IMG/VR virus record: IMGVR_UViG_3300023301_000093
Coordinates: 1 to 24,731 of that record
DNA from: a virus
Strand: one strand, 5' to 3'
Length of the DNA: 24,731 bases
Below are positions 2,051 through 16,520 of the stretch, piece by piece. The notes below the pieces were generated by a model, which was given only the letters and a program-made list of their open reading frames with translations, was not told the DNA's origin and did not search any database. The first letter of the stretch is position 1. The number at the start of each line of letters is the position of its first letter. Made by a program: the position numbers and the translations under genes.

Positions 2051-2412
2051 TACTCTGGCCCCTCTTCGTCTTTATAGTAAACCGATTCCCACCAGCGTAA
2101 GACTTCTTCTTTTGCCCACTCTATTTCTCCCCAACCACCGTTAAAATGCCAACCATCTGAAGGGCTCTCTTCGCTAAGTGCGATAGGGGATAGCCCTTGA
2201 GAAACATCTTTTATGTAAGACACGAGATTTTTTAGATGTACATAGACTTCTTCGTCTGTCAAAGATTCCAGTTCCGCTATGTTAGTAAAGTTTAAAATTA
2301 CTCTCTGCTCTACACCGTCAGAGTCTGTGATTGTCTTTACCCAGCGTGGTCTATCAACTATCGAGGCACCGCCCGCAGGTATTGCCCCATCATATTCAAA
2401 AAGGTAGGTCAT
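2050..2412 (-). CDS. Small acidic protein of unknown function after the tail fiber
   Basis: A 120-residue acidic protein of no family I recognise. It has Trp-rich segments (GWHFNGGWGEIEWAKEEV at about 87-104, then WW at about 107-108) and a helical mid-region. Its start codon overlaps the fiber gene's stop as ATGA (2409-2412), and its stop overlaps the next start as TAATG. Translation coupled to the fiber gene is therefore likely. The position directly after an S74-type fiber is where a fiber assembly or chaperone protein is often found. Small acidic Trp-containing proteins of that kind are common there in phages. That role is inference from position and composition only. Confidence 0.75.
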   Translation of the reverse strand: MTYLFEYDGAIPAGGASIVDRPRWVKTITDSDGVEQRVILNFTNIAELESLTDEEVYVHLKNLVSYIKDVSQGLSPIALSEESPSDGWHFNGGWGEIEWAKEEVLRWWESVYYKDEEGPE

Positions 2413-3836
2413 TTTTTGTCCTTAAGTTTTGTAACTTCTTCTTTAAGAGAGTCTATCTCAGTCTGTTGAACCTTTACTAGCTCTAGCACAAGCAGTGACA
2501 TAAGTCCGTAGTCAAGTTTGTCTGCATCGCCATCTTTGTCGTAGCCCACTGGCTCAGAGAATCCAAGACCCACAAGGTCTTCTACCATGTATCCGTGCAT
2601 CCACTCTTTGTTGAGCTCCTTGTGGTACCCCCTCTTAGACCTTTTGTACTTAAACTTTTTTGGTTCTAAGTTCAGTAATTTTTTAATGTCAGAAGGTTTA
2701 TAGGATTCTATGTCTTTTTTAATTTTTTGCGTTGAAGGGGTGCTGGTTGTCCTCGTTGCGCTTTGGAAGCCAGTAAGAGTTGCCCCTTCATACCCTGTGG
2801 TTGGGTAAACATCAGACACGGTATGTGTGTGGTTACCACGAGCAGCCATCAGAGAGCCAGAACCAAATATGACTCCAATATTAACTCTGGAGCCGCTTCT
2901 TCCAATATAAATAGTGCTACTCCCCGTTACTGTGCTAACGAATGACCCGTCTGTCTGATTGACTCCAACAGCTCCGTTTGCAATTTGACTCCTACCAACA
3001 GCTCCGTTAGCAATTTTTGCACTTCCTACGGCTCCGTTTTGGATTTTGGCGAAGGTCACAGCTTGATTGGTAATTTTATTAGTTGTGACAGCGCCGTCTC
3101 TAATGTTTTGATTAAAAACTGCTCCGCTGGCAAGCTCATTGTTGCCAACCGAGCCGTTAACAATGTTGGCTGCGTCTACGGAGTTTGAGGCCATGGCATT
3201 ATTAGTTACAGCGTCTGTATCAATTTTTGACGAGGTAACTGCATCGGAGGCAAGTTCGCTGGTTCCAACTTCCCCGTTGGCTATTTTATCGGCAGTAACT
3301 GCATCGGGGGCAAGCTCAGAATTTCCAACGGCCCCGTCCTTAATTTTTTCAGAAGTAACCGAATCGTTCTCTAGCTTGGTGTTACTGACTGCGTCATCTA
3401 GCAACTCTGGGGTTCCCACGGAGTCATTCTGCATTTCTACTTGACCAACAGAGTCTCCCTGTAAATTGTCTTGAGCAATAGCATCAACTGCCACTGCTCG
3501 GTTTTCTACAGCAGCGTCTGCAAGTTTTAAGGGAACAACAGCAAAGTCGCCAATTTTTCCAGTGACTACTGAGCTATCAATAAGCTCAAGCGTTCCAACC
3601 GAATCGTTTTGCATCTTTTCTTGCGTAATTGCGTCAGCCTGAACTTGGTCATTGACAATAGAATTTAGCGCAATTTGGTCTGTAGACACAGCGCGAGGTT
3701 GAATAGTGGTTCTGGTGACAACTTGATTGGCGAGTTTAGTGGGGTTGCCTCGATTCTGCAGATACTTAACTCTTCTCTGCAGGTCAGTAATGTTTCCCGT
3801 AAGGGAGCGTCTGCTTGCTCTTCTTCTAGTTGCCAC
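2409..3836 (-). CDS. Tail fiber with decapeptide repeats and S74 intramolecular chaperone
   Basis: A 475-residue fiber protein, probably trimeric and receptor-facing. Residues 1-40 are basic with a short coiled coil (DLQRRVKYLQNRG). Residues 41-290 are 25 consecutive ten-residue repeats in perfect register, close to G-x-x-K-I-x-x-G-A-V, which would form a long shaft. Residues 291-366 are a Gly/Ser/Thr-rich tip that includes NHTHT at about 335-339. Residues 367-475 match the peptidase S74 chaperone domain: STQKIKKDI at 368-376, LEPKKFKYK at 390-398, HGYMVEDL at 414-421, LDYGLMSLLVLEL at 441-453, then a coiled coil. S74 domains help trimerisation and cut themselves off; S368 is the candidate cleavage serine. 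The start is GTG at 3836, preceded by GGAAGG, and overlaps the previous gene by 11 bases. Confidence 0.9.
   Translation of the reverse strand: MATRRRASRRSLTGNITDLQRRVKYLQNRGNPTKLANQVVTRTTIQPRAVSTDQIALNSIVNDQVQADAITQEKMQNDSVGTLELIDSSVVTGKIGDFAVVPLKLADAAVENRAVAVDAIAQDNLQGDSVGQVEMQNDSVGTPELLDDAVSNTKLENDSVTSEKIKDGAVGNSELAPDAVTADKIANGEVGTSELASDAVTSSKIDTDAVTNNAMASNSVDAANIVNGSVGNNELASGAVFNQNIRDGAVTTNKITNQAVTFAKIQNGAVGSAKIANGAVGRSQIANGAVGVNQTDGSFVSTVTGSSTIYIGRSGSRVNIGVIFGSGSLMAARGNHTHTVSDVYPTTGYEGATLTGFQSATRTTSTPSTQKIKKDIESYKPSDIKKLLNLEPKKFKYKRSKRGYHKELNKEWMHGYMVEDLVGLGFSEPVGYDKDGDADKLDYGLMSLLVLELVKVQQTEIDSLKEEVTKLKDKK
2967..3716 (-). repeat. Decapeptide (30-bp) repeat array in fiber shaft, 25 units
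   Basis: Residues 41-290 of the fiber divide into 25 blocks of exactly ten residues with no insertion or deletion. Nearly every block ends in A/S-V or A-I, with Ile, Leu or Met at position 5. The best-conserved units lie near the C-terminal end (for example AKIANGAVGR and SQIANGAVGV). At DNA level this is a degenerate 30-bp period, not an exact tandem repeat. Confidence 0.9.
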
Positions 3837-5823
3837 TCTGGTCTACCTTCCAATCTGTTACTAATCTAAGTTGTACTTCTTCAGGAATCGGGACTCCATC
3901 GGGGATAACTACCGAGTAGGAATCAATCTTGCGAATAAGAATGTCACTTCGAGGCTCTTGGTCGCTCGCCAATCGCTGTCGTACAAACTCATCGTCAACA
4001 ATTATCGAGCACCATTGACCTGGAAAAAACGTGCCAACCTGAGGATAGAGCGAACCATTAGCAACTATGTTGTAGATGCCAACAGGCGGACGGGCTTCAT
4101 ACAAATAGTCCCGAGCATAAGCGTGAAGCGTTAGCTCGTCTTCGATTTCATCTAGCTGCTCTGCTAAATCAAGCAAGGGCCAGCTTCTCCCGTTGGGGTT
4201 AGATAGCATTATACGGTCTGTGGCTCCTGCATAAGGCTGGCTGGCATCATCGCTTAGGTCTTCAATGTTTCCGACTACAAAAAATCTAGTAGCAGCGTCC
4301 TCCGCTGACTCTTCAACGGTAAAACTAAGAATGTTTCCAGGATACTCAAAAACTATCTTTTCAGCACCAAAAGCAGTAATTGGGTATATCTCTCCCTCTG
4401 GAGGAGAGTCAGCAAGACTTATAGGAAACAGTCTGAATGTTCTACTAAAAGATGCGGTGTTGTAGTCGTAGTCACAGTCGATGCGATACTCGAAACCGCC
4501 CTCCACTGTGTTTGAGTATTGCTCAAGTATTTCTCCAACAGTTTTTTGCTCAAAGCCTCTAAAGATTTGGCTGTCTTGGTAAAACCCACTTTTATCAAGG
4601 TTCTCGAAGGCAACCCCAATATCTGCATTAGCTGTGTAGCTGCCGTAGTCCCCGTAAATTACTTTGGAGCCGAATAGCGAAATACCCCCCGCGACACCTT
4701 CAGGCCCAACATTTAAGATTCCACCAGAGCTAAAACTAAAACTGTTTGGGCTAGGTATGTCTATGATTGTGAAACGTCCATTAAATGTTGTGTCTAGCCG
4801 TCCAGTAAAGAAAGCATCTACCCCTGTGACAATAACTGTCTGCCCCACTGTTGCATTGTGCTCATCATCAAGAGTAAGCGTTGCTACATTATCTAACAGC
4901 TGTTTGCTTTGTACGTTTTGAGTACGAATTCCAGGTACAGCCGAAAAAGGAATACCTGGCCCGTCAAGTATCAATCTAATGGTTCGTTTATTTGGTACTT
5001 CTGAGATTATATGAAACCCATCCAGCTCTGAATCAATCTCAACTAATTCTATTTCTTGACCTGGAATTATGCTATGGTCTTCGCTTGTCTGCAGAGTGAC
5101 TACACCCGCAGAGCGCTCTTTAGAGATAATTGCTGCTTGAAGTTCTTTAGCTGGCTTAATTACCTCGTTGGCAAAGTTTAGACCGCTCAGGTCGGTGGAT
5201 GCTCGGAAGATAAGGTCGCGAGCAAAATCATAGGTGTCAATTAGACTACGAACTGCTCCGCTTGTACTTGGTCCGCTACCGTCTCCAGAAGTTGTCGTAA
5301 AGCTGAAGCTAGTTGTTGAGTTAATCTCTGTAATTGTCTGAACGCCGTCGACAATGGGATTTGTATACGAAACGGCAATTTTTTGACCAATATAAAACCC
5401 TTGAGGAAACTCGGTGGTTATAGTTCCTATGCCTGATTCCACAGCAAAAGTGGAGACTCCAATATAATCAGAACCGTATTGAATTGTTTGCCAGATATGC
5501 CTGTGATAAAAGTAACTCATAAACTCAGCGCCATTGACGCTTAAGGTTTGGCTAATTGCGTCGTATGACCTAGACCAAATTATCCCGCCCCAAACACATA
5601 CGCCGTTACGCATGATGTACAGACCTGTTCGGCCAGGCATAGTTGCTTCGTAGAGGTCTAACCCTTTGGTAGACTTAATAAATGGGATGCTGCCGCTAAA
5701 AGCTCCAGCTCTACGGTTTGCTCTTTCATAAGAGACACCTTTAAATGGAACCTCAGAAATTATGTCATTGCTGAGCAGGTCAGTAAGGTAGTAGCGGTAC
5801 TCAACCTGTGTCTCGATAGTCAT
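3826..5823 (-). CDS. Tal-like minor tail / baseplate protein with three inserted repeat modules
   Basis: A 665-residue protein that fits the actinophage minor tail protein following Dit, the tail-hub (Tal) position. Residues 1-115 carry the typical start (two-stranded segment YRYYLTDLL, then RTGLYIMRNGVCVWGGIIW at 65-83). The family's hub sequence resumes at about 195-222 (TYDFARDLIFRAS) and 402-515 (SGFYQDSQIFRGFEQKTVGE at 412-431). Three copies of the roughly 50-residue module described for Dit interrupt it at about 131-176, 238-285 and 311-364. No peptidase or lysozyme motif was seen, so a cell-wall enzyme is not claimed. The start is ATG at 5823 with AAGGA six bases upstream, 22 bases after Dit. 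The stop overlaps the fiber's GTG start by 11 bases. Confidence 0.8.
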   Translation of the reverse strand: MTIETQVEYRYYLTDLLSNDIISEVPFKGVSYERANRRAGAFSGSIPFIKSTKGLDLYEATMPGRTGLYIMRNGVCVWGGIIWSRSYDAISQTLSVNGAEFMSYFYHRHIWQTIQYGSDYIGVSTFAVESGIGTITTEFPQGFYIGQKIAVSYTNPIVDGVQTITEINSTTSFSFTTTSGDGSGPSTSGAVRSLIDTYDFARDLIFRASTDLSGLNFANEVIKPAKELQAAIISKERSAGVVTLQTSEDHSIIPGQEIELVEIDSELDGFHIISEVPNKRTIRLILDGPGIPFSAVPGIRTQNVQSKQLLDNVATLTLDDEHNATVGQTVIVTGVDAFFTGRLDTTFNGRFTIIDIPSPNSFSFSSGGILNVGPEGVAGGISLFGSKVIYGDYGSYTANADIGVAFENLDKSGFYQDSQIFRGFEQKTVGEILEQYSNTVEGGFEYRIDCDYDYNTASFSRTFRLFPISLADSPPEGEIYPITAFGAEKIVFEYPGNILSFTVEESAEDAATRFFVVGNIEDLSDDASQPYAGATDRIMLSNPNGRSWPLLDLAEQLDEIEDELTLHAYARDYLYEARPPVGIYNIVANGSLYPQVGTFFPGQWCSIIVDDEFVRQRLASDQEPRSDILIRKIDSYSVVIPDGVPIPEEVQLRLVTDWKVDQSGN
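4732..5433 (-). repeat. Three dispersed copies of tail module in Tal-like protein
   Basis: The copies code for residues 131-176 (5433-5296), 238-285 (5112-4969) and 311-364 (4893-4732). The third is closest to the shared pattern: DNVATLTLDDEH, then GQTVIVTGVD, TTFNGRFTIIDIPSPNSFSF. The first two are more diverged and lack the His-Gly pair. Unlike the Dit array they are spaced irregularly. Confidence 0.75.
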
Positions 5824-5845
5824 TTAATGTCCTTAAAGTATTACG

Positions 5846-8218
5846 TTAGCCAAGCCATCCAGAGCGGTAATACACTCGGAGAGATGTTTCACCCTCTGGA
5901 TTTCCTGAGTCAATAAATTCTAACTCATTGTCTCCAGGAGCTAATCCTATAAAGTCAGCCAATACATCTACTCTACCTCTTGCACCTTGAACTTCTCCAT
6001 TGAATGCTACTTCGCGGTTCTTGGTATCAATCTCAAGGATGTCTGCTGAAACAATTGCAGTTGCTCCCGACAGGCCAGGAGTAAATTGAACGTTTTGAGT
6101 TTTAATAACGTTTCCACCAGTAAATGTCTCTGGGATTATGTCTGAAATAGTGGCTGTACCGCCCGTAGCAGTCAAGGGAAGACTTCCACCCACGTCTGCT
6201 TGCCCGTTAGGCGTAACGTTCACCATATAAATTGTGCCTGACATTTCAACAAAGACATCAGCGGTTTCGCCCGTGTCTTCGTCTACTGGATACGAAATGA
6301 GAGCAACGTTAGCCGCCGTCTTTTGGCACTCCAAAACATTTAGAAAAGGAATAGCGGAAATAGTGTACGTTCCGTCAAAAGGAGCACCTACCCCCGTAAT
6401 TGTAATTTCTTCTCCGAAAATCGCACCGTGACTATCTCGGGTGGTTATGGTTATAACGTTTCCAGCTAAAAGGATAGAAGCAATCTTTCGGCTTCCAGCT
6501 CTAGCTGTACCGCCAGTGGGTATGGTGGTTGAAACTTGATTAGACCCGCTGTTGGCATAAGTAAAAGTAGTCGAACTGGGCAGGCTGGTAATTGTGTGAG
6601 TTCCGTTGAAGTCTCCACCATTTCCACTACCAGCACCGTCTACAACAACTTTTTCTCCGAGCACAAAACCGTGCGACTGAGACGCAGTTAGGGTCGCTAC
6701 ATTGCTAGACCTTGCTTTGGTTACGATTTTTTTCTGTGTAGTTCTTACTCTCCGATAACTAAAATCAGCAAGCAAAGAAGTAGATGCGATTGTGTACCCA
6801 CCGTTTAACGATAAGTCCACGCCTGTCACGTTTACGTTTTCACCAGCAACAAACCCGTGTGGAGCCGAAGTTGTCAAAGAAACAACGTCTTGAACCATCT
6901 GCTTTTTAATAATAGTCCGAGCGTTAGTTCTAGTAGAAGCGTAGCTGAAGGAGTTAGGAGACGGAATTGCAGTAATTTCAAAAGTTCCGTTGTAGTTAGT
7001 CCCAACGCCAGTTATTGTGACGGTTTCTCCAAGAATGAATTGATGGACGTCAGAAGTGTTAATTGTTGCAATGTTAGAGATTAATGACGCCGAGATAATA
7101 GTTCTCGGAGGAATACGAGTTTTAGAGAATTTTAAGGAATTAGCAGCAGGAGTAGATGTAATTGTATGCACTCCATCAAATACAGAATCCACGCCGCTCA
7201 CGACTATTGAACTACCCGTGGTTAGCCCGTGAGGTTCGGTCGTCTTTATAGTCGCAAAACCGCCTGCCAAAGACTTGAAAGCCGCGGGGATGATGAAAGC
7301 AGCATCTGCTTCGTAATTGAAAGTTGTGTCAGTAGGCACGGCTGTAATGAGGCTGTCCCCATCAAAGGGTGCGCCGATTCCCGAAACATAAACGCTATCT
7401 CCTACAGAGAACCCGTGGGCCTGAGTGGTGGTAAGGGTAGCGATATCTTTTAGGGTTGCTACGTTGAAAGCGAGCTGCTTGTTAACTACGGTTCTGGAAA
7501 TCGGGCCTTTAAGTCCCTGAGTCAAAATAATAAGTTCTTCTGTTGCTCTATTGAAGATAGTGCCTGGACCAGCAAACGGACCTGATACCTCTAGGAAGCA
7601 CGGCACGGAGTAGTTTCCAATATTGGTAATTGTTCCTAAACCACTGACCCCTGTTGCAGAGTTTTTAACTGGAACCTCAGCGAAAGCGTAGCCATCTGGG
7701 CTTGCGTCATTCCATGCGTACTTAATAGGGTCTGCAGCACGCAGCCCAATCTCAAAGTTGGTTCTGCCTCTAAGATTTTCGGTTTCGATTGAGATATCAC
7801 CGTTTAGCGTTACATACGCTGCTCTAATTGGGTTGTTGCCAGTTTTAAACCAAACGCCAGTTCTTGCTAAGTCAGCAGTAGCCGCAATAAGTTTGTCACG
7901 AGCAGCCTCAACGAGAGAAGGTTTTGGAACTAAGAAAGAGCCTCGAATAGAGAAGCTCCGTGAGTTGTAGCGCCCTCGTACTTCGTATGCCCCATCACCA
8001 AATCCTCTAGGAATGTTTGGGACATCAGCTCTAGGTGCTTCCCACCATCCTGGAATGTCAGTAACTACCCAAACAACTCCTTCAGAGTCTAGGGTGTTGA
8101 AGATAAAGTCCCCAAGGACAATGTTTGCGTCAAGCTTTAGACGGCCAATGTCTGGGCTAAAAATCTCCTGCAGACCTCTGTCTACTGAAAAGTTTTCTTG
8201 TCCTTGTGTATAGACCAT
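5846..8218 (-). CDS. Distal tail protein (Dit-like) with six inserted repeat modules
   Basis: A 790-residue Dit-like protein that would form the ring joining tail tube to baseplate. Residues 1-250 match the ring domain of siphovirus Dit proteins (SFSIRGSFLVP at 88-98; NFEIGLRAADPIKYAW at 154-169). The C-terminal part, about 705-790, matches the galectin-like end of Dit (ILEIDTKNREVAFNG at 727-741, GLAPGDNELEF at 758-768, RVYYRSGWLG at the terminus). Between them lie six copies of a 46-51-residue module, five with an exact 62-residue period. Typical Dit proteins are 250-500 residues, so the array explains the extra length. The start overlaps the tape measure stop as TAATG at 8218, which supports coupling. 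The Dit assignment rests on order and these segments, not on a search. Confidence 0.82.
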   Translation of the reverse strand: MVYTQGQENFSVDRGLQEIFSPDIGRLKLDANIVLGDFIFNTLDSEGVVWVVTDIPGWWEAPRADVPNIPRGFGDGAYEVRGRYNSRSFSIRGSFLVPKPSLVEAARDKLIAATADLARTGVWFKTGNNPIRAAYVTLNGDISIETENLRGRTNFEIGLRAADPIKYAWNDASPDGYAFAEVPVKNSATGVSGLGTITNIGNYSVPCFLEVSGPFAGPGTIFNRATEELIILTQGLKGPISRTVVNKQLAFNVATLKDIATLTTTQAHGFSVGDSVYVSGIGAPFDGDSLITAVPTDTTFNYEADAAFIIPAAFKSLAGGFATIKTTEPHGLTTGSSIVVSGVDSVFDGVHTITSTPAANSLKFSKTRIPPRTIISASLISNIATINTSDVHQFILGETVTITGVGTNYNGTFEITAIPSPNSFSYASTRTNARTIIKKQMVQDVVSLTTSAPHGFVAGENVNVTGVDLSLNGGYTIASTSLLADFSYRRVRTTQKKIVTKARSSNVATLTASQSHGFVLGEKVVVDGAGSGNGGDFNGTHTITSLPSSTTFTYANSGSNQVSTTIPTGGTARAGSRKIASILLAGNVITITTRDSHGAIFGEEITITGVGAPFDGTYTISAIPFLNVLECQKTAANVALISYPVDEDTGETADVFVEMSGTIYMVNVTPNGQADVGGSLPLTATGGTATISDIIPETFTGGNVIKTQNVQFTPGLSGATAIVSADILEIDTKNREVAFNGEVQGARGRVDVLADFIGLAPGDNELEFIDSGNPEGETSLRVYYRSGWLG
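6323..7450 (-). repeat. Six-copy tandem module array in Dit-like protein (62-residue period)
   Basis: Copies begin at residues 257, 319, 381, 443, 505 and 585. The first five are spaced exactly 62 residues (186 bp) apart; the last gap is 80. The shared pattern is N-V/I-A-T-L-T-T, then H-G-F-x-x-G-E/D-x-V-x-V-x-G-V, then F-N/D-G-T-x-x-I-T-x-x-P, then F-x-Y. Linkers often carry R-T-I-I-x-K/S-A. Protein-level conservation is clear, while third-position drift shows that these are not recent duplications. The pattern matches repeats in phage structural proteins that databases label E1 FCCH-like (recalled). Confidence 0.88.
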
Positions 8219-11200
8219 TAGACTGCGCCTCTCCTAAGCTCAAAAGCCAACCTGCGAGAGACAAGCTCGGCAAGCTCGCGCTCGTTCATTCCTGCAGATG
8301 GGTAGACGTTAATTGTAGTACCGCCTTTACCACCAGAGAGCATTTTAATCATAGACCTGTCACGGACAGACAACCCATCTTTATCAAGAGGAGCAACCCT
8401 CTCTGCACGTCCGCCTTCACCTAGAACTGCCATCATCCCGCCTCGCGTAGCAGGAACTACGCCACCAGCAGCTAAACGAGGGATATTAGGAGTGTCAATC
8501 GTAAATCCTAAGCCAGCAATCTTTAGAGCTGTGGTTATAAAGTTCGTCGGAATTTTGACGTCTAGCTTAAAGTTATTCCATTTGTCGATTATGAAGTTAA
8601 GAGCACTCTTAAAACTATTCTTGAGCCAATCCCAAAGTCCTGCTGCAGCTGCTCCTATTTTAGCTGGTAGGTCCTTAAAGAACGGGATGAGAGTGTCATT
8701 AAAGTAGTTTTTTACCCCGTTAAAGGCGTCTTTAAACAAGTCACCAAAGAACGCAAAAATGTCCCCAGCCGCGGTCGAGATTACGTTACCAAGGTCTTTA
8801 AACCATCCAGGCACAGTGTTACCCCAAAAGTTTAAGTAGTTCTTCCAAGCGTCTTTAAATAAATCTAGGAACCAGTCAAAAATTTCCTTAGCCCTGTCCC
8901 CTATGGCTTTACCAAGATTTGCAAAGAATGGGAAAATAGTGTCGTTCCAGTAATCTAAAATTCCCTGCCAAATATCAAGGAAAGCGTCTTTTACAAAAGC
9001 CCATGCTTCGCCAAAGAACTCACCAATTTTTGCAGTTGTCTCTTTGAAAAAGGCAACAATCTCGTCCCAATTCTTAACAATAAAAGCAATAGTTGAGATG
9101 ACCACAGCGATGAGAAGCCCCCAAGGTCCACCAAGAATTCTTAGAATACCCATAGCTATTCTGCCCAAAAACGGCAAGAGGAATTTTAGTGCGCTTTTAA
9201 AAGCCACTGCAAATCTACCCTTAAGCTTTGACAAAAACTCAGTCAGTTTTGCAAACCCTTTTTTCCCAAGAATTAACCTAATGTTTCCTAGAAGCGCCTT
9301 GCCAAGGAAACTGAATACTTTAGCTATTCTTCCAACCGCTGTTATAACTCCAAAAAGTAATCCGACAAACTTTAGAACACTCTGGACTATGTCATTTGAA
9401 AGGATAGCGTTTATAATTTTTAGAGCGCCAGTTAGGGTCTGGAAAAAGACCTGAATCGCACCGCTGTCTGTTAAGTTTTTTATCAGTAGGGCAAACTCTT
9501 CTAGGAAAATACCCAACTGTGCGATAGCACCGTCTTCTTTTCCAATCTCATCGCCAATCGAATTAAAAGAGTCAGTGACTTTTCCTATTGAATCTATAAA
9601 TTGCCCAACTCCAGGAGAAGCGCCAAGAGTTAAGAAGCCGCCTATTATTTTCCCAATAACAGTTAGGATTCCTGTAAAGTTTTTGACGGAGTTTTCAAAG
9701 AACGTTCTTAGAGAGCCGTCTTCTTCTCCCGCGGTAATAAACTCTTTAAAAGATTCGGCTGAGGTCTTAAAGTAAGTAAGAAGCTGCTCTCCAGGCCCCC
9801 CTGGGGCATTTATAACTTCTCCAATTATCCCAAAAGCGTCTTTTAAAGCCCCAAAAGTGTCTTTTAGAATGGTGACTTTGCTCTGAACCCCTTCAAAAGT
9901 TTCAGCCAGCTTTCCACTGTTTTCGTCTAATTTTTTAGTTTCTTTCCAAGCTTCACTAGTGTTGACTGCCCAGTCCCCGAAAGCAGTAATCAGGGGCTCT
10001 GCGGCAGCTAAGAGAATTAAAAATCCTTCTAGGAGGTTTATAACTGTTTGACCAAGGTTTCCTAGAAGAGTATTGTTAGTAGACCAAACAGCTTTTAGTC
10101 TGTCAAAATTCTCGCCTTGGAAGAATGTCTTAGCAAAAGTAACAGCCAAGTCTCCAAGGATGTCGCCAGTAGCTTGGAACAAAGGCTCAAGTTCTTTAAA
10201 TTTTCCAATGATTATGGTTAGAGCGGTCTCAAGTTTTGGAAACAGGTCTCGTCCAGCAGCATCACGCAAGTCATCAAAGGCATCTTGTTGCTCAATGAGG
10301 AACTCAACAAAACTCTGAGCTTCTGGTGAAAGCTTTTCTAGTGCATTTCGATACTCATCGATTCCGCCTGAAGCAGCTTTTGACGCGGCTTGCTGAGCAA
10401 GCTGAACTTGCTCTCTGGCGGCAGCAATTCTTCTGTTTAAGTCACGCTCTACGGTTCCTCCAGCACCAGCGTCAGCTGCGGCTTTAGCGGCGTCTTCCGT
10501 GGCCCTGCTTGCATCTCTTATTGCTCTGGCAGCGGCAATCCCAGCATCTACTTCGGCCTGCTGGGCGTCTGCAATGTCTTCTTTGGCCTTAACAACTTCT
10601 TTAGAGCCCTCGACACCAGCTTTCGTAGATGCTTCTGATTCTTTTTTGAGGTCTGAGTTGTTGTCAATAGCCTTGCGGAGGTTTAGCTCGGCTTCTGCAA
10701 AGGCAAGTTCTGCTTCTTGACGTGCTCTAGAGTTTGGTGGGAGGTCCTGAACTCTTTGCAAGGAGTCGCGAGACTTTTCAAAGGCAAGGCGAGCCTTTTT
10801 CTCAGAGATAGCACCGCCTTCAACCTCGAAACGAAGTTGCTGTATCTTCTCTCTGGCGTCATCACGAGCCTCGTTGAGGTCCTCGAGGGCATTAAGAGAG
10901 TTCTTTTGTGCTTGATTATAAGTTCTAGTGGCTCTTTCGGTCCCGAGCAATGCGTCAGCAGCCGCTTCTTCGGCTCTGACAGCCCTCTCACGTGCTGCTG
11001 CAAGGGCTTCAGGCTTTTCTTCTTCTAGTAGCCTCTTAAGAGATAATCTGGCGTCACGGAGGCGCCTAGCGGCTGCCGCCTGTGCATCACTGTTGTCCAC
11101 CGCTGCTTGTTGTGCTTTTAAGCCAGCTGAAAGCGCGTCGCTTACGCCTCTAAAGGCCACTTTAGCGACAATTGCAGCCTGAGCTAAGCTACCTAAGGCC

Positions 11201-11556
11201 GCGACGAATACGATTGAGCCTCTGGCTGCGTTTCCAAGAACTGCACCCAGTACAACCAATCCGCTGACGAGGCTACCGATGATACCGACTACTGCACCAA
11301 TTGCAGGAACAAGAGCAAATGAAGCTATGTTTAAGTTACGGAACTTTACTCGAGCTGCTTCAATTTCTCTAAGAAAATTGTCACTTAAGGCAGAGCCTAT
11401 TCTTCTGTTCTTGAGACCCTTGTTTACTCCGTCTCCTAGGTTTCTACCAGCTTTCTCGCCGACGCCTCCCATACCGTTTAGGTCACGTTCAACTTGCTTT
11501 TTGAATCCAGAAGTGAGAGCGCGGACTACGACATATGCGTCACCTACTACTGCCAT
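8218..11556 (-). CDS. Tape measure protein
   Basis: A 1112-residue tail length-determining protein. Residues 79-135 are hydrophobic and Gly/Ala-rich and may span the membrane. Residues 150-395 are long charged Ala-rich coiled coil, with segments such as EARDDAREKIQQLRFEVEGG (229-248) familiar from actinophage tape measures. A second hydrophobic stretch lies at 806-828 (PWGLLIAVVISTIAFIVKNW). Residues 853-975 are three 41-residue Trp/Phe-rich repeats plus a partial fourth. The C-terminus has the common AAGGVV...GEGGRAERVAPL segment (1029-1056). At about 1.5 angstroms per residue the tail would be roughly 165 nm. The start is ATG at 11556 after a G-rich Shine-Dalgarno. The gene lies directly below the chaperone pair, the classic siphovirus order. 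No lysozyme or peptidase motif was noticed. Confidence 0.95.
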   Translation of the reverse strand: MAVVGDAYVVVRALTSGFKKQVERDLNGMGGVGEKAGRNLGDGVNKGLKNRRIGSALSDNFLREIEAARVKFRNLNIASFALVPAIGAVVGIIGSLVSGLVVLGAVLGNAARGSIVFVAALGSLAQAAIVAKVAFRGVSDALSAGLKAQQAAVDNSDAQAAAARRLRDARLSLKRLLEEEKPEALAAARERAVRAEEAAADALLGTERATRTYNQAQKNSLNALEDLNEARDDAREKIQQLRFEVEGGAISEKKARLAFEKSRDSLQRVQDLPPNSRARQEAELAFAEAELNLRKAIDNNSDLKKESEASTKAGVEGSKEVVKAKEDIADAQQAEVDAGIAAARAIRDASRATEDAAKAAADAGAGGTVERDLNRRIAAAREQVQLAQQAASKAASGGIDEYRNALEKLSPEAQSFVEFLIEQQDAFDDLRDAAGRDLFPKLETALTIIIGKFKELEPLFQATGDILGDLAVTFAKTFFQGENFDRLKAVWSTNNTLLGNLGQTVINLLEGFLILLAAAEPLITAFGDWAVNTSEAWKETKKLDENSGKLAETFEGVQSKVTILKDTFGALKDAFGIIGEVINAPGGPGEQLLTYFKTSAESFKEFITAGEEDGSLRTFFENSVKNFTGILTVIGKIIGGFLTLGASPGVGQFIDSIGKVTDSFNSIGDEIGKEDGAIAQLGIFLEEFALLIKNLTDSGAIQVFFQTLTGALKIINAILSNDIVQSVLKFVGLLFGVITAVGRIAKVFSFLGKALLGNIRLILGKKGFAKLTEFLSKLKGRFAVAFKSALKFLLPFLGRIAMGILRILGGPWGLLIAVVISTIAFIVKNWDEIVAFFKETTAKIGEFFGEAWAFVKDAFLDIWQGILDYWNDTIFPFFANLGKAIGDRAKEIFDWFLDLFKDAWKNYLNFWGNTVPGWFKDLGNVISTAAGDIFAFFGDLFKDAFNGVKNYFNDTLIPFFKDLPAKIGAAAAGLWDWLKNSFKSALNFIIDKWNNFKLDVKIPTNFITTALKIAGLGFTIDTPNIPRLAAGGVVPATRGGMMAVLGEGGRAERVAPLDKDGLSVRDRSMIKMLSGGKGGTTINVYPSAGMNERELAELVSRRLAFELRRGAV
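8632..9000 (-). repeat. 41-residue (123-bp) tandem repeats in tape measure protein
   Basis: Residues 853-893, 894-934 and 935-975 are three units of exactly 41 residues, and a partial unit follows. Each runs F/D-W-F-x-D-L-F-K-D-A-W/F, then Y/F-x-N-D/N-T, then P-F/W-F-K/A-D/N-L, ending D/G-x-I/L-F/W. Trp and Phe recur at matching positions, as is usual for tape measure repeats that line the tail tube. Confidence 0.85.
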
Positions 11557-11575
11557 ACGCTCTCACCCCCTTCTT

Positions 11576-12040
11576 CTAAAGACTTTCAGGCTGGTCTAGG
11601 ACCTGCCCAAATGGAAGCGGACTATCCGCATCAAAGTCTGTTGTCGGTGTATACGCCCTTGTGGGGCGCTTTTGCTGCATTGGGTCGGGAATCACTTCGT
11701 CGGTGCTTCCCATCAACCCATCCGAAGGAAGGGTGTCGTTACTAATATTATAGCTTTGTCCTGTACTGTTGTCTCCGTACTTATACGTAGTTCCATACAG
11801 GTCCCTATACATAACGGAACGTATTTGTGTTTTGGATTCGGACTCTTCAGAAGAGCTGACCAGTAAATCTTCTTCGAAGAAGTAGTGGATAACATCTAGC
11901 ATGTCTGACAGTTCCATTTCTTTAAGCTTTATGCCTTGCACAAGGGCTTTTCCGTTTATATAAGGCCAGAGGTCAATTGCCCACTCTACAAGTCCTCTGG
12001 CCCCGCTGTAGGGCGGCTTGAATACTCCTCTACGAGCCAT
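11576..12040 (-). CDS. Tail assembly chaperone, downstream frame (gpGT-type extension)
   Basis: The second open frame of the tail assembly chaperone pair, 154 codons if started at ATG 12040. It overlaps the upstream frame by 55 bases and lies in its -1 frame, directly before the tape measure gene, which is the arrangement of lambda G/GT. No good Shine-Dalgarno precedes ATG 12040, and a TGA blocks the frame nine bases above it. The frame is therefore most simply read by -1 frameshifting out of the first gene, contributing 141 residues to a fusion of about 249. The start of the open frame carries ARGLVEWAIDLWPYI, typical of chaperone extensions; the end is acidic and disordered. Such fusions bind the tape measure protein and recruit tube subunits. 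The frame is well supported; the exact slip site is less certain. Confidence 0.8.
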   Translation of the reverse strand: MARRGVFKPPYSGARGLVEWAIDLWPYINGKALVQGIKLKEMELSDMLDVIHYFFEEDLLVSSSEESESKTQIRSVMYRDLYGTTYKYGDNSTGQSYNISNDTLPSDGLMGSTDEVIPDPMQQKRPTRAYTPTTDFDADSPLPFGQVLDQPESL

Positions 12041-12324
12041 GAGGTGATTTCACCAAGCGTCTCAACTGAGACAATGCGGATAGGGTCCCTCAATAGGATG
12101 TCGAAACGGGCATAGCTTTCCTCTACGAGGACAGCCTTGAAAAACGAGTCAATAGTTTTGGCTATTGCAGCTCCGTCATTTTCGTCTGAGTTTGCCACCA
12201 AGTCGAGCAACATTTTACCCTGCAAAGCTGGGTAACACTCGAAATCTTCTCCGTGGAGCTTAAACGAAACAGGAGTGTCGGTGACGGCTGCGCCAGCACC
12301 AAAGTCCTTGAATCTATTTGTCAT
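11986..12324 (-). CDS. Tail assembly chaperone, upstream frame (gpG-type)
   Basis: A 112-residue small acidic protein in the position of the phage lambda gpG tail assembly chaperone, two genes before the tape measure. The sequence begins MTNRFKDFGAG, has a beta-strand segment around VSFKLHGEDFECYP (22-35), and then helices such as AKTIDSFFKAVLVEESYARF (55-74). The end, SSRPTAGPEDL, falls inside the overlap with the next frame. AAGGA lies 7-8 bases above ATG 12324. It is separated from the HK97 gp10-like gene above by 58 bases. Most ribosomes would stop here and a minority would shift into the downstream frame. The assignment rests on order, size and overlap geometry. Confidence 0.8.
   Translation of the reverse strand: MTNRFKDFGAGAAVTDTPVSFKLHGEDFECYPALQGKMLLDLVANSDENDGAAIAKTIDSFFKAVLVEESYARFDILLRDPIRIVSVETLGEITSWLVEEYSSRPTAGPEDL
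11999..12004 (-). promoter_or_regulatory. Candidate -1 ribosomal frameshift site (G GGG CC)
   Basis: Inside the overlap of the two chaperone frames the upstream frame reads GCG GGG CCA. A tRNA on GGG (12003-12001) can slip back one base and re-pair perfectly with GGG. The next codon is then GCC, in the downstream frame, giving ...TAG-ARGLVEW. It is not a full X XXY YYZ heptamer. The nearby CGC CCT, where Pro tRNA could slip to CCC, is an alternative. The GAGGAG about 20 bases upstream could be stimulatory. Confidence 0.45.
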
Positions 12325-12348
12325 GCTTCTTCCTTGTCTATGTCATTT

Positions 12349-12370
12349 ACGCACAACTGATGCAGTGCGT
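12349..12370 (-). other. Hairpin between gp10-like and chaperone genes
   Basis: ACGCAC and GTGCGT are perfectly complementary across a 10-base loop that can itself form ACTG-CAT-CAGT. It lies in the 58-base gap, and no T-run follows on the minus strand, so it is not an obvious terminator. It could set mRNA stability or spacing; its function is unknown. Confidence 0.4.
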
Positions 12371-12382
12371 CCTTACTACTAT

Positions 12383-12775
12383 CTATCTTATCAACTTTAG
12401 ATTGTCTGATAAATAGCGATTTGGCTTTGTACCAGGGTGTCTTACTAAAGGAGCAAAAACAATTACTCCCTTACTAAAGAACCTCAAGTGCGTATTCGGC
12501 CCCTTGGGGAGTATTAAATGGGGCTTAGTGCCCTCGTGATGCATGTAGGCATGCTTTACAGAGGAGCCAATTTTTAGATATTGACCTCGAGAATCTCGCA
12601 TGTGACGCATGTGAATCGATGAACGCAACTGCCCCGTTTTTACCCCCACTTGGGCTCTAGCAGCGGTCGTAACCTTAGTTCCTTGCTTTTTAAGGTATCG
12701 TCCAACTTGTCCACCAGGAGAATTTAGATAGTTGTCAATTACTGGCTGTCTCCAGACCAGTCTCACGTTCGCCAT
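12383..12775 (-). CDS. HK97 gp10-like head-tail connector / minor tail protein
   Basis: A 130-residue basic protein of the HK97 gp10-like family, small connector proteins found between head and tail genes. The family pattern is plain: GVKTGQLRSSI at 44-54, a beta segment YLKIGSSVKHAYMHHEGT at 66-83, PHLILP at 85-90, LRFFSKGVIVFAPLVRHPGT at 97-116, and a closing PNRYLSDNL helix. Size matches the family. The start overlaps the stop of the preceding gene as TAATG (12775-12777), so the two are likely made in linked amounts. In related phages it helps close the head-tail joint or the top of the tail. Confidence 0.85.
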   Translation of the reverse strand: MANVRLVWRQPVIDNYLNSPGGQVGRYLKKQGTKVTTAARAQVGVKTGQLRSSIHMRHMRDSRGQYLKIGSSVKHAYMHHEGTKPHLILPKGPNTHLRFFSKGVIVFAPLVRHPGTKPNRYLSDNLKLIR

Positions 12776-13287
12776 TATGGGACAGCCATTGTGATGGTCA
12801 AACGGGTCGTCTGGAAGCCACCTTCAGGAGAGTCAACGTCTACAGTTGCGATTACGCCAAGACCCAATCCGCTGGGGAGCCCGCTCCAACTTGAGTCAAA
12901 GTCTCTAACGCTTTCCATAAGAATCCAAGCGTCTAAAGCAGACACTTCAGTAGCGCCTTGAATGTTTGCAGAATTGGGTGGGTTTCCGTTAGCCTGCGCC
13001 ACGGGAACTTCTCGAGACACCGACACAAGAAGTGTTGCACTTCGAGGGTCGTTACAACGCCTAGGCTCGTTTGCTTCGTCGCCAGGAGTGCCTATGTACA
13101 TCTGAATAAGAGAAACAACCAACTGCTCGCAGTCAACCGCGGGGGCTCCAAAAGTGAAGTACTTGCGAGTTGGAATAGGCATGTTGTAAGAGTCGTAGGC
13201 AGTGACGACTTTGGAAAGAACTTCTCCAAGGAAGGTTGCTAAGTTTTTAGCGTCGTCATTCACGCCACTGATATCTGCTACTGCCAT
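12775..13287 (-). CDS. Tail-terminator-like / connector protein
   Basis: A 170-residue protein in the connector cluster between the head-tail adaptor and the gp10-like protein. It has a helix at 10-32, then CEQLVVSLIQMYIGTPGD (53-70) with C53 and a second Cys at 78. A strand segment ATLLVSVSREVPV (84-96) and a second helix SALDAWILMESV follow, ending in a strand-rich tail. This layout (Cys, G-x-P-G, Cys, R-x-V-P) is one I associate with actinophage tail terminator or completion proteins, from memory. The start is ATG 13287 with only a weak purine-rich AGAAAG upstream, 19 bases after the adaptor gene. The call is moderate; a stopper or other connector role is possible. Confidence 0.62.
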   Translation of the reverse strand: MAVADISGVNDDAKNLATFLGEVLSKVVTAYDSYNMPIPTRKYFTFGAPAVDCEQLVVSLIQMYIGTPGDEANEPRRCNDPRSATLLVSVSREVPVAQANGNPPNSANIQGATEVSALDAWILMESVRDFDSSWSGLPSGLGLGVIATVDVDSPEGGFQTTRLTITMAVP

Positions 13288-13306
13288 GTCATTTCTTTCT
13301 TATGTA

Positions 13307-14446
13307 TTATGCAATTGCTATTGGTGTTATGCGGCTACCCAGTTGATATATAACGTTACCCGTTACTAGGTTAATTATCTCGTTAACCTCGGGGTTTCCT
13401 AAACTTGGTCGGCTTGCATATACATCAATTAGTCCAGGATTACGAGGACCTAAAATTCCAAGCAACGCTGGATAGCCCAGAGCAATTCTAATGGTGCCTT
13501 CTACTCTGTCCAACTGAGCTTCGTTTGAGAAGTCAATAGTCGTAGAGCTGTTGTAGTTAGCTACCGTTGCGTACACGTTCCATGCGCTGTCTTCGGTAAG
13601 GAACTCTCCACCAAATTCGTTGATGTAGTAGACCTGCGTGCCACCCTGAGAGTTGAAGTACAAATCGTACGAGCTGAGCTCAAAGGCAGGGGACTTACCG
13701 ATAATTCGACGAGCGCGAGGCTGGTCTGGTGAGAACACTCGAGAACGAGCACGGGCCTTGTCTGGGTTAACAGCACGCAGGAAAAGGTCAACTGCGTAGA
13801 TACCAGTTTTGAGCTCGTCAATGAAGTCTTGGTTGTCAAGTACTGTGTACGAGACTCCCTGACGAGCAACAGAGGTCACACGTTGAGGGAGGGCGCAGGT
13901 GTCGTCTCCCGAATAAAGCTTTACTAATTCTGTGGCTAAAAGTCTCGCGGCGGCTCGTCCTGAAGGAGGAGGAGGGCTGCCGTATGTATAAGTCACTTCA
14001 ACGTTTGTAGCGGTCCACGAAGCGTTTGGTGTTCCGTATAGTACTGAGTGGTCTGCTAAGTAATAAGTGTCGGGGTCAATAAGTTCGCCATCCATAGTTC
14101 GCATGTTGTGAACCTCAACAACTTTACGTCCTCGCAGTCTTACACGGGTAAGAGCGTTGGTGCCGTCCCCAAGAAAGTCATGGTTTGAGTAACGACCGTT
14201 TCCGCCATTGACAACGTTCTCTACTTTTCCGTTGATTAGCTGGGGAGCATGGGACATGCTAGAAGTCCCAGTGCGAAGATATGGGTCATAGGCAGAAACG
14301 TACCGCTCAGTGACGGTTGTGCTGCCAGAAAATTTACGCCCTGACATACTCCAGAGCAAGTGAGAAGCGGTCTTAATTGCATCATATGCATAGTCAGAGT
14401 CTGCGAATTCGCCAAGCTCTTCTATATCTACCCACAAGTTACTCAT
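13307..14446 (-). CDS. Head-tail adaptor with long C-terminal extension
   Basis: A 379-residue protein whose first 240 residues look like the actinophage head-tail adaptor that binds under the portal. Evidence includes an N-terminal helical bundle (DSDYAYDAIKTASHLLWSMS, 17-36), a beta segment with GRKVVEVHNMRTMDG (106-120) and YGSPPPPSGRAAARLLATEL (155-174). A Cys at 184 and the strong signature LPQRVTSVARQGVSY (186-200), then NPDKAR...SPD at 227-241, follow. Residues about 250-379 are extra compared with typical adaptors. They are rich in aromatic and strand-forming residues (DLYFNSQGGTQVYYINEFGG at 261-280), and I do not recognise that part. A strong AAGGAG precedes ATG 14446. The gene is the first one below an intrinsic terminator, so it is probably expressed by read-through or from an unseen promoter. 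Confidence 0.78.
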   Translation of the reverse strand: MSNLWVDIEELGEFADSDYAYDAIKTASHLLWSMSGRKFSGSTTVTERYVSAYDPYLRTGTSSMSHAPQLINGKVENVVNGGNGRYSNHDFLGDGTNALTRVRLRGRKVVEVHNMRTMDGELIDPDTYYLADHSVLYGTPNASWTATNVEVTYTYGSPPPPSGRAAARLLATELVKLYSGDDTCALPQRVTSVARQGVSYTVLDNQDFIDELKTGIYAVDLFLRAVNPDKARARSRVFSPDQPRARRIIGKSPAFELSSYDLYFNSQGGTQVYYINEFGGEFLTEDSAWNVYATVANYNSSTTIDFSNEAQLDRVEGTIRIALGYPALLGILGPRNPGLIDVYASRPSLGNPEVNEIINLVTGNVIYQLGSRITPIAIA

Positions 14447-14464
14447 TAAGGCTCCTTAGATTAG

Positions 14465-14507
14465 AAAAAGCGGGCAGTTGACGACAGTGTCGTCGCTAAC
14501 TACCCGC
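14465..14507 (-). terminator. Intrinsic (Rho-independent) terminator after tail tube gene
   Basis: On the minus strand, GCGGG (complement of 14503-14507) pairs with CCCGC (complement of 14470-14474). AGTT/AACT and GACGAC/GTCGTC extend the stem, with one mismatch, a three-base bulge and a three-base loop. TTTTT (complement of 14465-14469) follows at once. It starts 12 bases after the tube stop codon and ends before the adaptor's Shine-Dalgarno. The other strand has no T-run, so it acts on minus-strand transcripts. Confidence 0.88.
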
Positions 14508-14519
14508 CTCATAACTAAA

Positions 14520-15566
14520 TTATACTGTTGGGTCCTCAGTTGACGCAATGATGAAGTCAATTGGGAGGTCAGGGTTGTAGAACTCGCCACCAGGTACGTT
14601 GTACGTGGTAGTTGAGCCTTGGCTATCAAAGTCCTGAACTGTGATGTAGCCACGCTGACGGATAACTGTTCCAGCAGGTGATACTGGTGTCGAAGCAACA
14701 TCCGCCGATGTCTTAGCAAAGCGGAAGGTTGTTGGCGTAGGAGCAGCTGTAATTAGGTAGGTACCGTTGAACTCTGAGCCAACATCGGCCACAACTACTG
14801 TCTGACCAATTGCAAAACCGTGAGTTGTTGCAGTAGTCAAAGTAGCAACGTTAGAGGTCAAGCTCTTGTTGCTAATAGTGTTTGTGGACTCGTTGTGCCA
14901 AGTGTAGAAGCCGCGAAGACCTTCAGGTGCCCAGTCGCCACGTGCGTAGCTGTATGGACGCTCTGTAGCAACTGGGAACTCCCAGCGACCGTCAAGACCG
15001 CTACCGAATGCAACGTTTCCAAGACCGTAGCCTTCGAAGGTGTTGGCAAGTAGGCCGTTCTCAATTACGCGGTCACCAGACTGGCGAAGCTTTGCGTATG
15101 GGAAGACCCAGTAGAAGTAAGGAAGAGTTGAGGCACGCTTGCCGTCCTTAACAGCGAAGGACCAAACCTCGATAGTAACACCGTTACCAGCAGGGTCGTC
15201 TCCAACGCCAGGTGCTGCCCAACCAATGCTCTGGTTGGTAGGCGAACCGAAGGTGCCAAAGTTCTTACGAAGAAGAAGCCCACCAGACATAAGAGAGGTT
15301 AGCTCTGGGTCTGGCTCGCAGATAGCGATTTCCATGGTGATTCTCTTCAGTGTGTCAGGAGCCTTGTAGGAGACACAAATTGTGCCGTCTGCAGACTTCT
15401 CTGTTATTTCATCGCCCTCTTCGTACTCAGGAGTAAACGATGCACGCAAAAATGCGGTAGTCGTGTAGCTGTCTCCTGCTCCGTTGAGCATGTTTCCAGC
15501 GCCGTCCAGTCGAGTGACTCGGAGCGCCACGCCTTGGACGCTAGCCGCGTAGTCCTGTGTAGCCAT
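14520..15566 (-). CDS. Major tail (tube) protein with one inserted repeat module
   Basis: A 348-residue tail tube subunit, polymerising into the tube below the head. The N-terminal 225 residues fit actinophage major tail proteins: TAFLRASFTPEYEEGDEI at 37-54, LKRITMEIAICEPDPELTSL at 73-92 and VTIEVWSFAVKDGK at 130-143. Residues 238-285 are one copy of the module found six times in Dit (SNVATLTTATTHG, IGQTVVVADVG, FNGTYLITAAP). A short strand-rich tail follows. The start is ATG 15566, seven bases after AAGGAG. The gene lies between the second capsid-associated gene and a terminator, upstream of the connector genes. That is not the usual place, since tube genes normally follow the connectors. 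A different abundant virion protein is possible but less likely. Confidence 0.75.
   Translation of the reverse strand: MATQDYAASVQGVALRVTRLDGAGNMLNGAGDSYTTTAFLRASFTPEYEEGDEITEKSADGTICVSYKAPDTLKRITMEIAICEPDPELTSLMSGGLLLRKNFGTFGSPTNQSIGWAAPGVGDDPAGNGVTIEVWSFAVKDGKRASTLPYFYWVFPYAKLRQSGDRVIENGLLANTFEGYGLGNVAFGSGLDGRWEFPVATERPYSYARGDWAPEGLRGFYTWHNESTNTISNKSLTSNVATLTTATTHGFAIGQTVVVADVGSEFNGTYLITAAPTPTTFRFAKTSADVASTPVSPAGTVIRQRGYITVQDFDSQGSTTTYNVPGGEFYNPDLPIDFIIASTEDPTV
14712..14855 (-). repeat. Single copy of the tail module in the tube protein
   Basis: It encodes residues 238-285 of the tube protein. It keeps every hallmark of the Dit copies: NVATLTT, THGF, GQTVVV, FNGTY, ITA-P and T-F-R-F. It is among the closest to consensus. 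The flanking protein is tube-like on its N-terminal side. Confidence 0.85.
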
Positions 15567-15605: not shown

Positions 15606-16520
15606 TTAGGTCGTAGGAATTGTCACTCGCATTGCGAAATGCATTGAGGGGTCAGAGTAGACCGCCGCAGGGCGATATGCTTTGATTCTCATGTTATTTA
15701 TTGTAGCATCTACGCCCTGACCCAAGTCTTCGTTTACGACCTCGACATTGCCTAGGTGGACGTCAACAACACCAGTTGCGTACATCCATTTGTTAGTGAC
15801 AGAAGCAGCAGCGCCTGTCGCACCTACTGGGCCATTACCTGAGTAACCAGAGCCAATAACTACTTGTGTTCCAAGACGTGTCATAACACTTCCTGGGTAC
15901 TCGTCATCACCTTTTCTGTAGAGGAGACGAGTGCCTAAGTCTGAGGCGATGTCGCGTGTCATGTGGATAACACCGTTTTCGCCTAATGGTGATTCTGAGA
16001 TTGCTTGCTCAAGGTACATGAGAGAAATTTGTGGAGTAAATGCTCCTGCAACTGGGATTGTAGAGTCTCCAGTTTTACTCAGGTACATGTTGCCTGAGCC
16101 AACTTCTTCTACATCTGGGGTAGTGCTGACTAACGCACGGGCTGCTGGGCCATCCCAAAACTCGAGCTCTACGGCCTTCTGAGTAACAGCATCAAGCTCT
16201 TGCTTTACGCGGTCGAACCTGTCTTGGCCTAAAATGCCAAAGGTCGAGGCAAAATCTTCTACATCAATAAAGAACGGAACGTAGTTTAAGTAGCGGGCTT
16301 CAGACTGATTGTCTGTGAGCTCGCCGCCCGTTACTATAGCGTCGTTTACGGTTAGAAGACGCACGTATGACGGCATGGTGTTGAATTCTTTATCGAAGCC
16401 ACGAATCCAACGCTCGTCATACTCACTACCAGTGTGGGATGTAGTGCTTGCAACGCTCAGAAGCCCGCAGGGAGCGGGAATTAACTTTGTAGCGGGGAAA
16501 ACCCCTCTAAATATAGCCAT
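15606..16520 (-). CDS. Capsid-associated structural protein next to major capsid gene
   Basis: A 304-residue protein immediately after the major capsid gene. I associate its pattern with a conserved actinophage family at this position, from memory. Segments include GSEYDERWIRGF (31-42), RFDRVKQELDAVTQKAVELE (101-120), then FWDG, GVIHMTRD at 183-190, VVIGSGYSGNGP at 220-231, KWMYATG at 244-250 and YSDPSMHFAM at 288-297. The mix of a helical segment with E-x-E-F-W followed by strands resembles HK97-fold capsid or encapsulin-like proteins, so it may be a second capsid-shell or head-completion protein. No transmembrane or enzyme motif is visible. ATG 16520 has AAGGA close upstream (spacing about three), with GAGGAG further up as an alternative. 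Structural role is likely, exact role uncertain. Confidence 0.68.
   Translation of the reverse strand: MAIFRGVFPATKLIPAPCGLLSVASTTSHTGSEYDERWIRGFDKEFNTMPSYVRLLTVNDAIVTGGELTDNQSEARYLNYVPFFIDVEDFASTFGILGQDRFDRVKQELDAVTQKAVELEFWDGPAARALVSTTPDVEEVGSGNMYLSKTGDSTIPVAGAFTPQISLMYLEQAISESPLGENGVIHMTRDIASDLGTRLLYRKGDDEYPGSVMTRLGTQVVIGSGYSGNGPVGATGAAASVTNKWMYATGVVDVHLGNVEVVNEDLGQGVDATINNMRIKAYRPAAVYSDPSMHFAMRVTIPTT

Follow-up and report, generated by a model that had tools for sequence, protein, structure and literature searches.

Ten copies of one small protein module are spread over three tail proteins encoded in the 24,731-base IMG/VR virus record IMGVR_UViG_3300023301_000093 (the whole of which we call the window), whose minus strand carries a siphophage-type structural gene block. 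One copy lies in the major tail (tube) protein, six in the distal tail protein (Dit) and three in a Tal-like protein. Analysis of these proteins and of their relatives leads us to regard it as fairly probable that the modules are optional beta-barrel decorations of virion proteins, which would bind envelope glycans weakly and multivalently and thereby aid adsorption. All coordinates given below are window positions on the minus strand, unless a relative is named.

Searching the whole 24.7-kb record with the tube copy as the sole query returned exactly ten places (E 1.9e-38 to 9.8e-6). Leave-one-protein-out profiles also recovered all ten copies (tube, E 4e-22; Dit, 8e-10 to 7e-17; Tal, 1.4e-7 to 9e-15) and gave no significant match to the other 15 open reading frames (ORFs) of the window, and the top score among 900 shuffled tube, Dit and Tal proteins was 10.8 bits compared to 66-81 bits for the real copies. 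These profiles and shuffles exclude chance resemblance and, together with the single-copy search, confirm the number and distribution of copies proposed in an initial annotation of the window; its span of 4732-14855 is close to the measured 4720-14858. The sequence motif given there describes the copies fairly, apart from its HGF element, which is degenerate in some of them (HQF, HGL, HGA, HNA, HSI or QGF). In tube-copy numbering G18, G32 and I36 are invariant, with T6 and H13 nearly so, and Dit copies 1-5 start at an exact period of 62 residues. Because pairwise identity among the ten copies is only 17-52%, they are, as judged from their sequences, old. Recent duplication within the window phage was ruled out by these identities and by DNA repeats that are short and weak.

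The tube protein (348 amino acids; 14520-15566) was assigned by its match to PHROG 792, major tail protein (E 1.3e-21), and its relatives are annotated likewise. Its single module (amino acids 237-287; 14706-14858) is part of a modelled beta domain of approximately residues 227-303 and was confidently predicted by AlphaFold2, with predicted local distance difference test (pLDDT) values of 93-97, whereas the tube core was poorly modelled (mostly below 60). Alignment with tubes of relatives (L010 and the viral contigs L136-L138) delimited a C-terminal extension between the conserved GFYTW and YNVPG (amino acids 224-321; 14604-14897), which holds the module. In Phendrix, GMA2 and Mimi the tube protein stops at the start of this extension, indicating that the ring-forming core does not need it to be complete. 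Module-free tubes were found in phage DSL-LC01 and in L136-L138; that of DSL-LC01 keeps the C-terminal tail, has no module and is about 77 residues shorter than the window tube. Within the tube protein mean identity is 47% for the module and 81% for the core. By these alignments the tube copy sits beyond the complete core rather than in a barrel loop, and the repeated loop insertion suggested initially holds for Dit and Tal and not for the tube.

Dit (790 amino acids; 5846-8218) matched Pfam SPP1_Dit (E 9.2e-10; 39.1 bits, cut-off 25 bits). In Foldseek searches the whole Dit model had its best match in the Bxb1 tail-tip protein (E 1.2e-13), followed by the 80alpha, TP901-1, SPP1 and Douge Dit structures, with a probability of 1.00 for SPP1 Dit (2x8k), TP901-1 (4v96) and 80alpha (6v8i). 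Its modules occupy amino acids 256-306 (7301-7453), 318-368 (7115-7267), 380-430 (6929-7081), 442-492 (6743-6895), 504-558 (6545-6709) and 585-635 (6314-6466), and they lie in an insert of 487 residues (amino acids 239-725; 6044-7504) in the C-terminal galectin-like domain. The insert also includes a beta-rich part after the sixth module (amino acids ~640-723; 6050-6300), which is neither module nor Dit core. In module-free Dit relatives of 304-326 amino acids (L160, L204, L136 and L210), ELILVIDPVPNG and QILEIDTQDREV are contiguous, and it is there that the window Dit carries its insert. The SPP1_Dit match is likewise contiguous in the L160 protein (amino acids 212-313) and limited in the window Dit to profile positions 37-97, after the insert, showing that the array interrupts the galectin-like domain at a single loop. 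The window Dit therefore has two features of an evolved Dit, the core fold and inserted modules that the plain Dit of relatives lacks; the third, binding of host envelope carbohydrate by the inserted module, may be hinted at by the fold likeness to the endosialidase beta-barrel.

The Tal-like protein (665 amino acids; 3826-5823) was so named from its sequence and position: it matched PHROG 1885, minor tail protein (E 1.6e-28), is encoded directly after Dit and has homologues in Streptomyces phages. A search of its sequence against solved structures gave no match. Both inserts are missing from the Tal of Streptomyces phages SV1 and ToastyFinz, which reveals two separate sites. The first site (amino acids 114-193), between HRHIWQT and LIDTYDFARDLI, holds copy 1 (amino acids 129-179; 5287-5439), and the second (amino acids 206-391), between RDLI and DYGSYTANADIG, holds copies 2 (amino acids 238-288; 4960-5112) and 3 (amino acids 310-368; 4720-4896). 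Module-free relatives thus bear out the earlier view that the Dit and Tal copies lie between segments forming one conventional fold.

Structure prediction covered the single tube copy and all six in Dit, and returned confident small beta domains in each case (pLDDT ~90-97; six Dit modules ~90, whole Dit model mean 86.7). In the models the module is a separately folding small beta-barrel, which in the tube copy resembles both the endosialidase beta-barrel and the FCCH domain of E1 enzymes. Foldseek of the tube model matched the FCCH-bearing E1 enzymes Uba1 and Uba6 with a probability of 1.00 (E 6e-4 to 2e-3); the aligned residues are not printed for this match, confidence in the tube model is confined to the module, and the root mean square deviation of ~7-11 Å over 105-130 columns reflects that the poorly modelled core was drawn in. 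The same model matched the phi92 and NF endosialidases at ~3 Å over 97 columns and, among predicted viral proteins (BFVD), many proteins of uncultured Caudovirales and cyanophage fibres, the smallest deviation being 0.6 Å. At the level of sequence, Pfam E1_FCCH (PF16190) matched 16 of 28 Dit homologues (best E 2.4e-10); the window Dit scored 20 bits, below the Pfam cut-off of 29.5 bits, and the isolated tube module gave no match to this family. End_beta_barrel (PF12195) matched weakly, in two of 29 modules (best E 0.029) and in one Dit homologue (E 0.0096), and residues 200-258 of the phi92 endosialidase gave a weak full-length match to the module (E 0.74). No Ig or fn3 Pfam family matched the window tube, Dit or Tal, or any of 29 diverse modules. 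The E1 FCCH-like label initially given to the repeat is thus supported by fold and by Pfam matches in relatives.

The natural variation of the module among relatives shows how dispensable it is. A relative of the window tube is encoded in at least 447 viral-contig stretches, and the closest named relatives by this protein are the Microbacterium phages Cece, Pumpernickel, A3Wally, Big4 and Zooman (64-67% identity), with one module in each Microbacterium phage tube examined. The metagenome-assembled Actinomycetia phage DSL-LC01 is a further near relative by its tube, and in Gordonia and Arthrobacter phages likeness is limited to the first 220 residues. Since the nearest named relatives are actinophages, the window phage probably infects an actinobacterium. 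Within the window, the profile search proposed with the initial annotation finds the module in tube, Dit and Tal only; in relatives it adds two proteins. One is the head-tail adaptor, module-free in the window (379 amino acids; 13307-14446; PHROG 783, E 1.2e-38) and 454-464 amino acids long with one module in about 20 relative loci. The other is the 304-amino-acid protein encoded between the capsid and tube genes (gp304; 15606-16520; PHROG 779, E 1.4e-19), also module-free in the window, whose homologue reaches 363-417 amino acids with one module in about ten relative loci. Both are clean insertions when compared to module-free homologues. That gp304 might be an additional capsid or tube protein was rejected, profile comparison with both families giving a probability below 1%. 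In the Microbacterium phages one further minor tail protein carries a module, which in Pumpernickel sits beside four fn3 domains.

Empty sites occur naturally for every site, in tube, Dit, Tal, adaptor and gp304, indicating that the modules are optional decorations and not core walls. Module-free tube, Dit and Tal homologues exclude a module that forms part of the core tube or ring wall, and the comparison with such relatives that had been suggested as a check located the insertion points. Across relatives the number of modules ranges from 0 to 4 in tube, from 0 to 7 or more in Dit and from 0 to 10 in Tal. Dit with one module occurs with five or six in Tal (L077, L080 and L096) and Dit with six or seven occurs with three in Tal; a strict trade-off between the two is broken by L160 (Dit 0, Tal 3) and DSL-LC01 (Dit 1, Tal 2). 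The Dit and Tal arrays of the Microbacterium phages are made up of units of 36-37 residues that correspond to the first half of the module only, in about six repeats followed by one full module (in A3Wally, L012:14394-18317 and L012:20623-24366; likewise in L009, L011 and L016).

Mapped onto a tree of tube cores, module number changed at least 9 times for tube, 17 for Dit, 5 for Tal, 3 for the adaptor and 8 for gp304; these counts would include any swaps of whole neighbouring genes, come from a tree with many unresolved forks and would score degenerate modules under the profile threshold as absent. A tree of the modules themselves required 43 site changes as compared to 105-115 with shuffled labels. 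Modules therefore mostly group by site, indicating that most copies were inherited in place; with 50 columns and 265 rows this tree holds too little to name single exchange events. Tube and Dit modules of different phages are up to 77.5% identical, however, and because this likeness reaches into the linkers SNKALT and GT, it suggests that a unit of ~70 residues has been exchanged between sites.

How might these domains act? They are found at loop or terminal positions: beyond the tube core, as a tandem array at one Dit site, at two Tal sites and, in relatives, within the adaptor and gp304. Because the folds that host it are complete without it, the module would most likely protrude from the tail, a placement suggested by the module-free relatives and by structures solved for other phages. 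The tape measure has 1112 amino acids and, at about 0.15 nm per residue and with rings of ~4 nm, would span ~40 rings, so that, as a rough estimate, a virion might carry ~240 copies on the tube, with a Dit hexamer adding 36 and a Tal trimer 9. Many weak contacts with glycans of the cell envelope could then make adsorption likelier through avidity before the receptor-binding tip engages. The module would in this respect act like the carbohydrate-binding and Ig-like accessory domains found in other siphophages. That the module binds bacterial envelope glycans is proposed by analogy; the beta-barrel of the K1F endosialidase, for instance, contains a polysialic acid site (PMC12632334). We favour glycan decoration because the module is dispensable in relatives, sits at loop or terminal positions, is poorly conserved, occurs in many copies and has both a suggestive fold and precedents. 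Several points weigh against it: a conserved sugar-binding platform was not identified in the modules, the E1 FCCH likeness brings no sugar function, the endosialidase sequence matches are individually below significance and, with pLDDT mostly below 60 in the modelled tube core, the outward position leans on relatives and on structures of other phages. A wider proposal, which we hold to be somewhat less likely than not, is that this one beta-barrel serves an actinophage family as a general, exchangeable adhesion unit of the virion surface, moved among head-proximal protein, neck, tube, Dit and Tal independently of known Ig-like domains and carbohydrate-binding modules, its number per virion being tuned by gain and loss.

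Modules of this kind could instead be structural spacers or braces, the Dit array forming arms or a barrel round the baseplate and the tube modules steadying the stacking of rings, with sugar binding not their purpose. The best match of the Dit model is in keeping with this, as the extra domains of the Bxb1 tail-tip protein shape a barrel-like baseplate (PMC13252515), and the Ig domain of the lambda tube contacts neighbouring subunits, its loss cutting activity 100-fold (PMC8718954). Yet close relatives are module-free in tube, Dit or both, so that no family-wide assembly step can need the modules, their number varies and their sequence is less conserved than the core. Since relatives manage without them, a structural role is not general, and we consider it unlikely as the main explanation. 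Frequent gain and loss, and the tube and Dit modules of different phages that resemble each other into their linkers as expected of an exchanged unit, would also fit near-neutral passengers, tolerated in exposed loops and spreading without benefit by illegitimate recombination or by homologous recombination between related modules. Such passengers would hardly be expected to stay open-framed, foldable and recognisable at a divergence as deep as that within the window phage, and the grouping of modules by site argues that most copies were long kept in place; we therefore hold this account to be improbable. E1 enzymes bind proteins, and E1 FCCH, the best fold match, belongs to such a protein-binding enzyme, which would be compatible with modules whose partners are not glycans but a protein or appendage on the host surface, further modules or other particles. 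We give this very little weight: of the phage relatives of this fold, the one whose function is known binds sugar, and comparable siphophage decorations, when tested, bound host cells or cell-wall glycans.

The three decorated proteins belong to a block with the gene order long ORF (at the position of the capsid maturation protease in relatives), major capsid protein, gp304, tube, head-tail adaptor, small neck proteins, two overlapping ORFs at the tail assembly chaperone position, tape measure, Dit, Tal and tail fibre. The major capsid protein (16588-18744) has a very long, acidic N-terminal part rich in Glu, Ala and Val, which is perhaps a fused scaffold. The two overlapping ORFs 5' of the tape measure gene (11576-12324) resemble a tail assembly chaperone pair. 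In pairs of this kind a programmed frameshift usually links the two frames; a reading of the overlap sequence established no slippery site. The tail fibre (2409-3836) shows a repeated AVTxxKI/AVGxxEL pattern, and its C-terminus weakly matches Peptidase_S74, an endosialidase chaperone (E 0.0013, below cut-off).

Hundreds of viral contigs and cultured Microbacterium relatives provide natural presence and absence alleles at six sites in five virion proteins, so that the role of accessory surface domains in adsorption is directly testable by comparison and deletion. The BFVD matches in many uncultured Caudovirales moreover give a fold to a widespread, little-studied domain of aquatic phages. The principle of one fold decorating several virion proteins is already known, and the initial remark that such spread is unusual needs softening. 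In 936 lactococcal phages a BppA-like module occurs in an evolved Dit, the tube extension (TpeX) and the neck passage structure, with host-cell binding shown for the tube-extension and neck modules (PMC6669499), and mycobacteriophage Douge carries 919 Ig-like domains on capsid and tube that bind mycobacterial glycans (PMC13033339). Like the module described here, that of the 936 phages is of one kind, optional and variable on several virion proteins; it differs in fold, is described as occurring singly and not in arrays of at least six, and is not described in Tal, adaptor or a protein upstream of the tube in that paper. Ig-like domains (Big_1, Big_2 and FN3; lambda, T5, SPP1 and Douge) are likewise optional accessory beta domains on tube or capsid (PMC13033339, PMC8718954), whereas the present module matches E1_FCCH and no Ig or fn3 family and is stacked inside Dit and Tal as well. 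The Bxb1 distal tail protein shares with the window Dit, whose model it matches best, an enlargement by several extra domains (PMC13252515), but these are three CTE-like domains, and the likeness applies to the model as a whole. E1_FCCH (PF16190) and the endosialidase beta-barrel (PF12195) share the predicted fold of the single tube module, although the window encodes neither an E1 enzyme nor a sialidase, and a literature search for FCCH in phages found no relevant paper. Compared to these systems, what is new in the literature searched is the E1-FCCH-like fold as a decoration, its tandem arrays in Dit, its insertion in Tal and its occurrence, within one phage lineage, in as many as five families of virion proteins, each site having alleles that naturally lack it.

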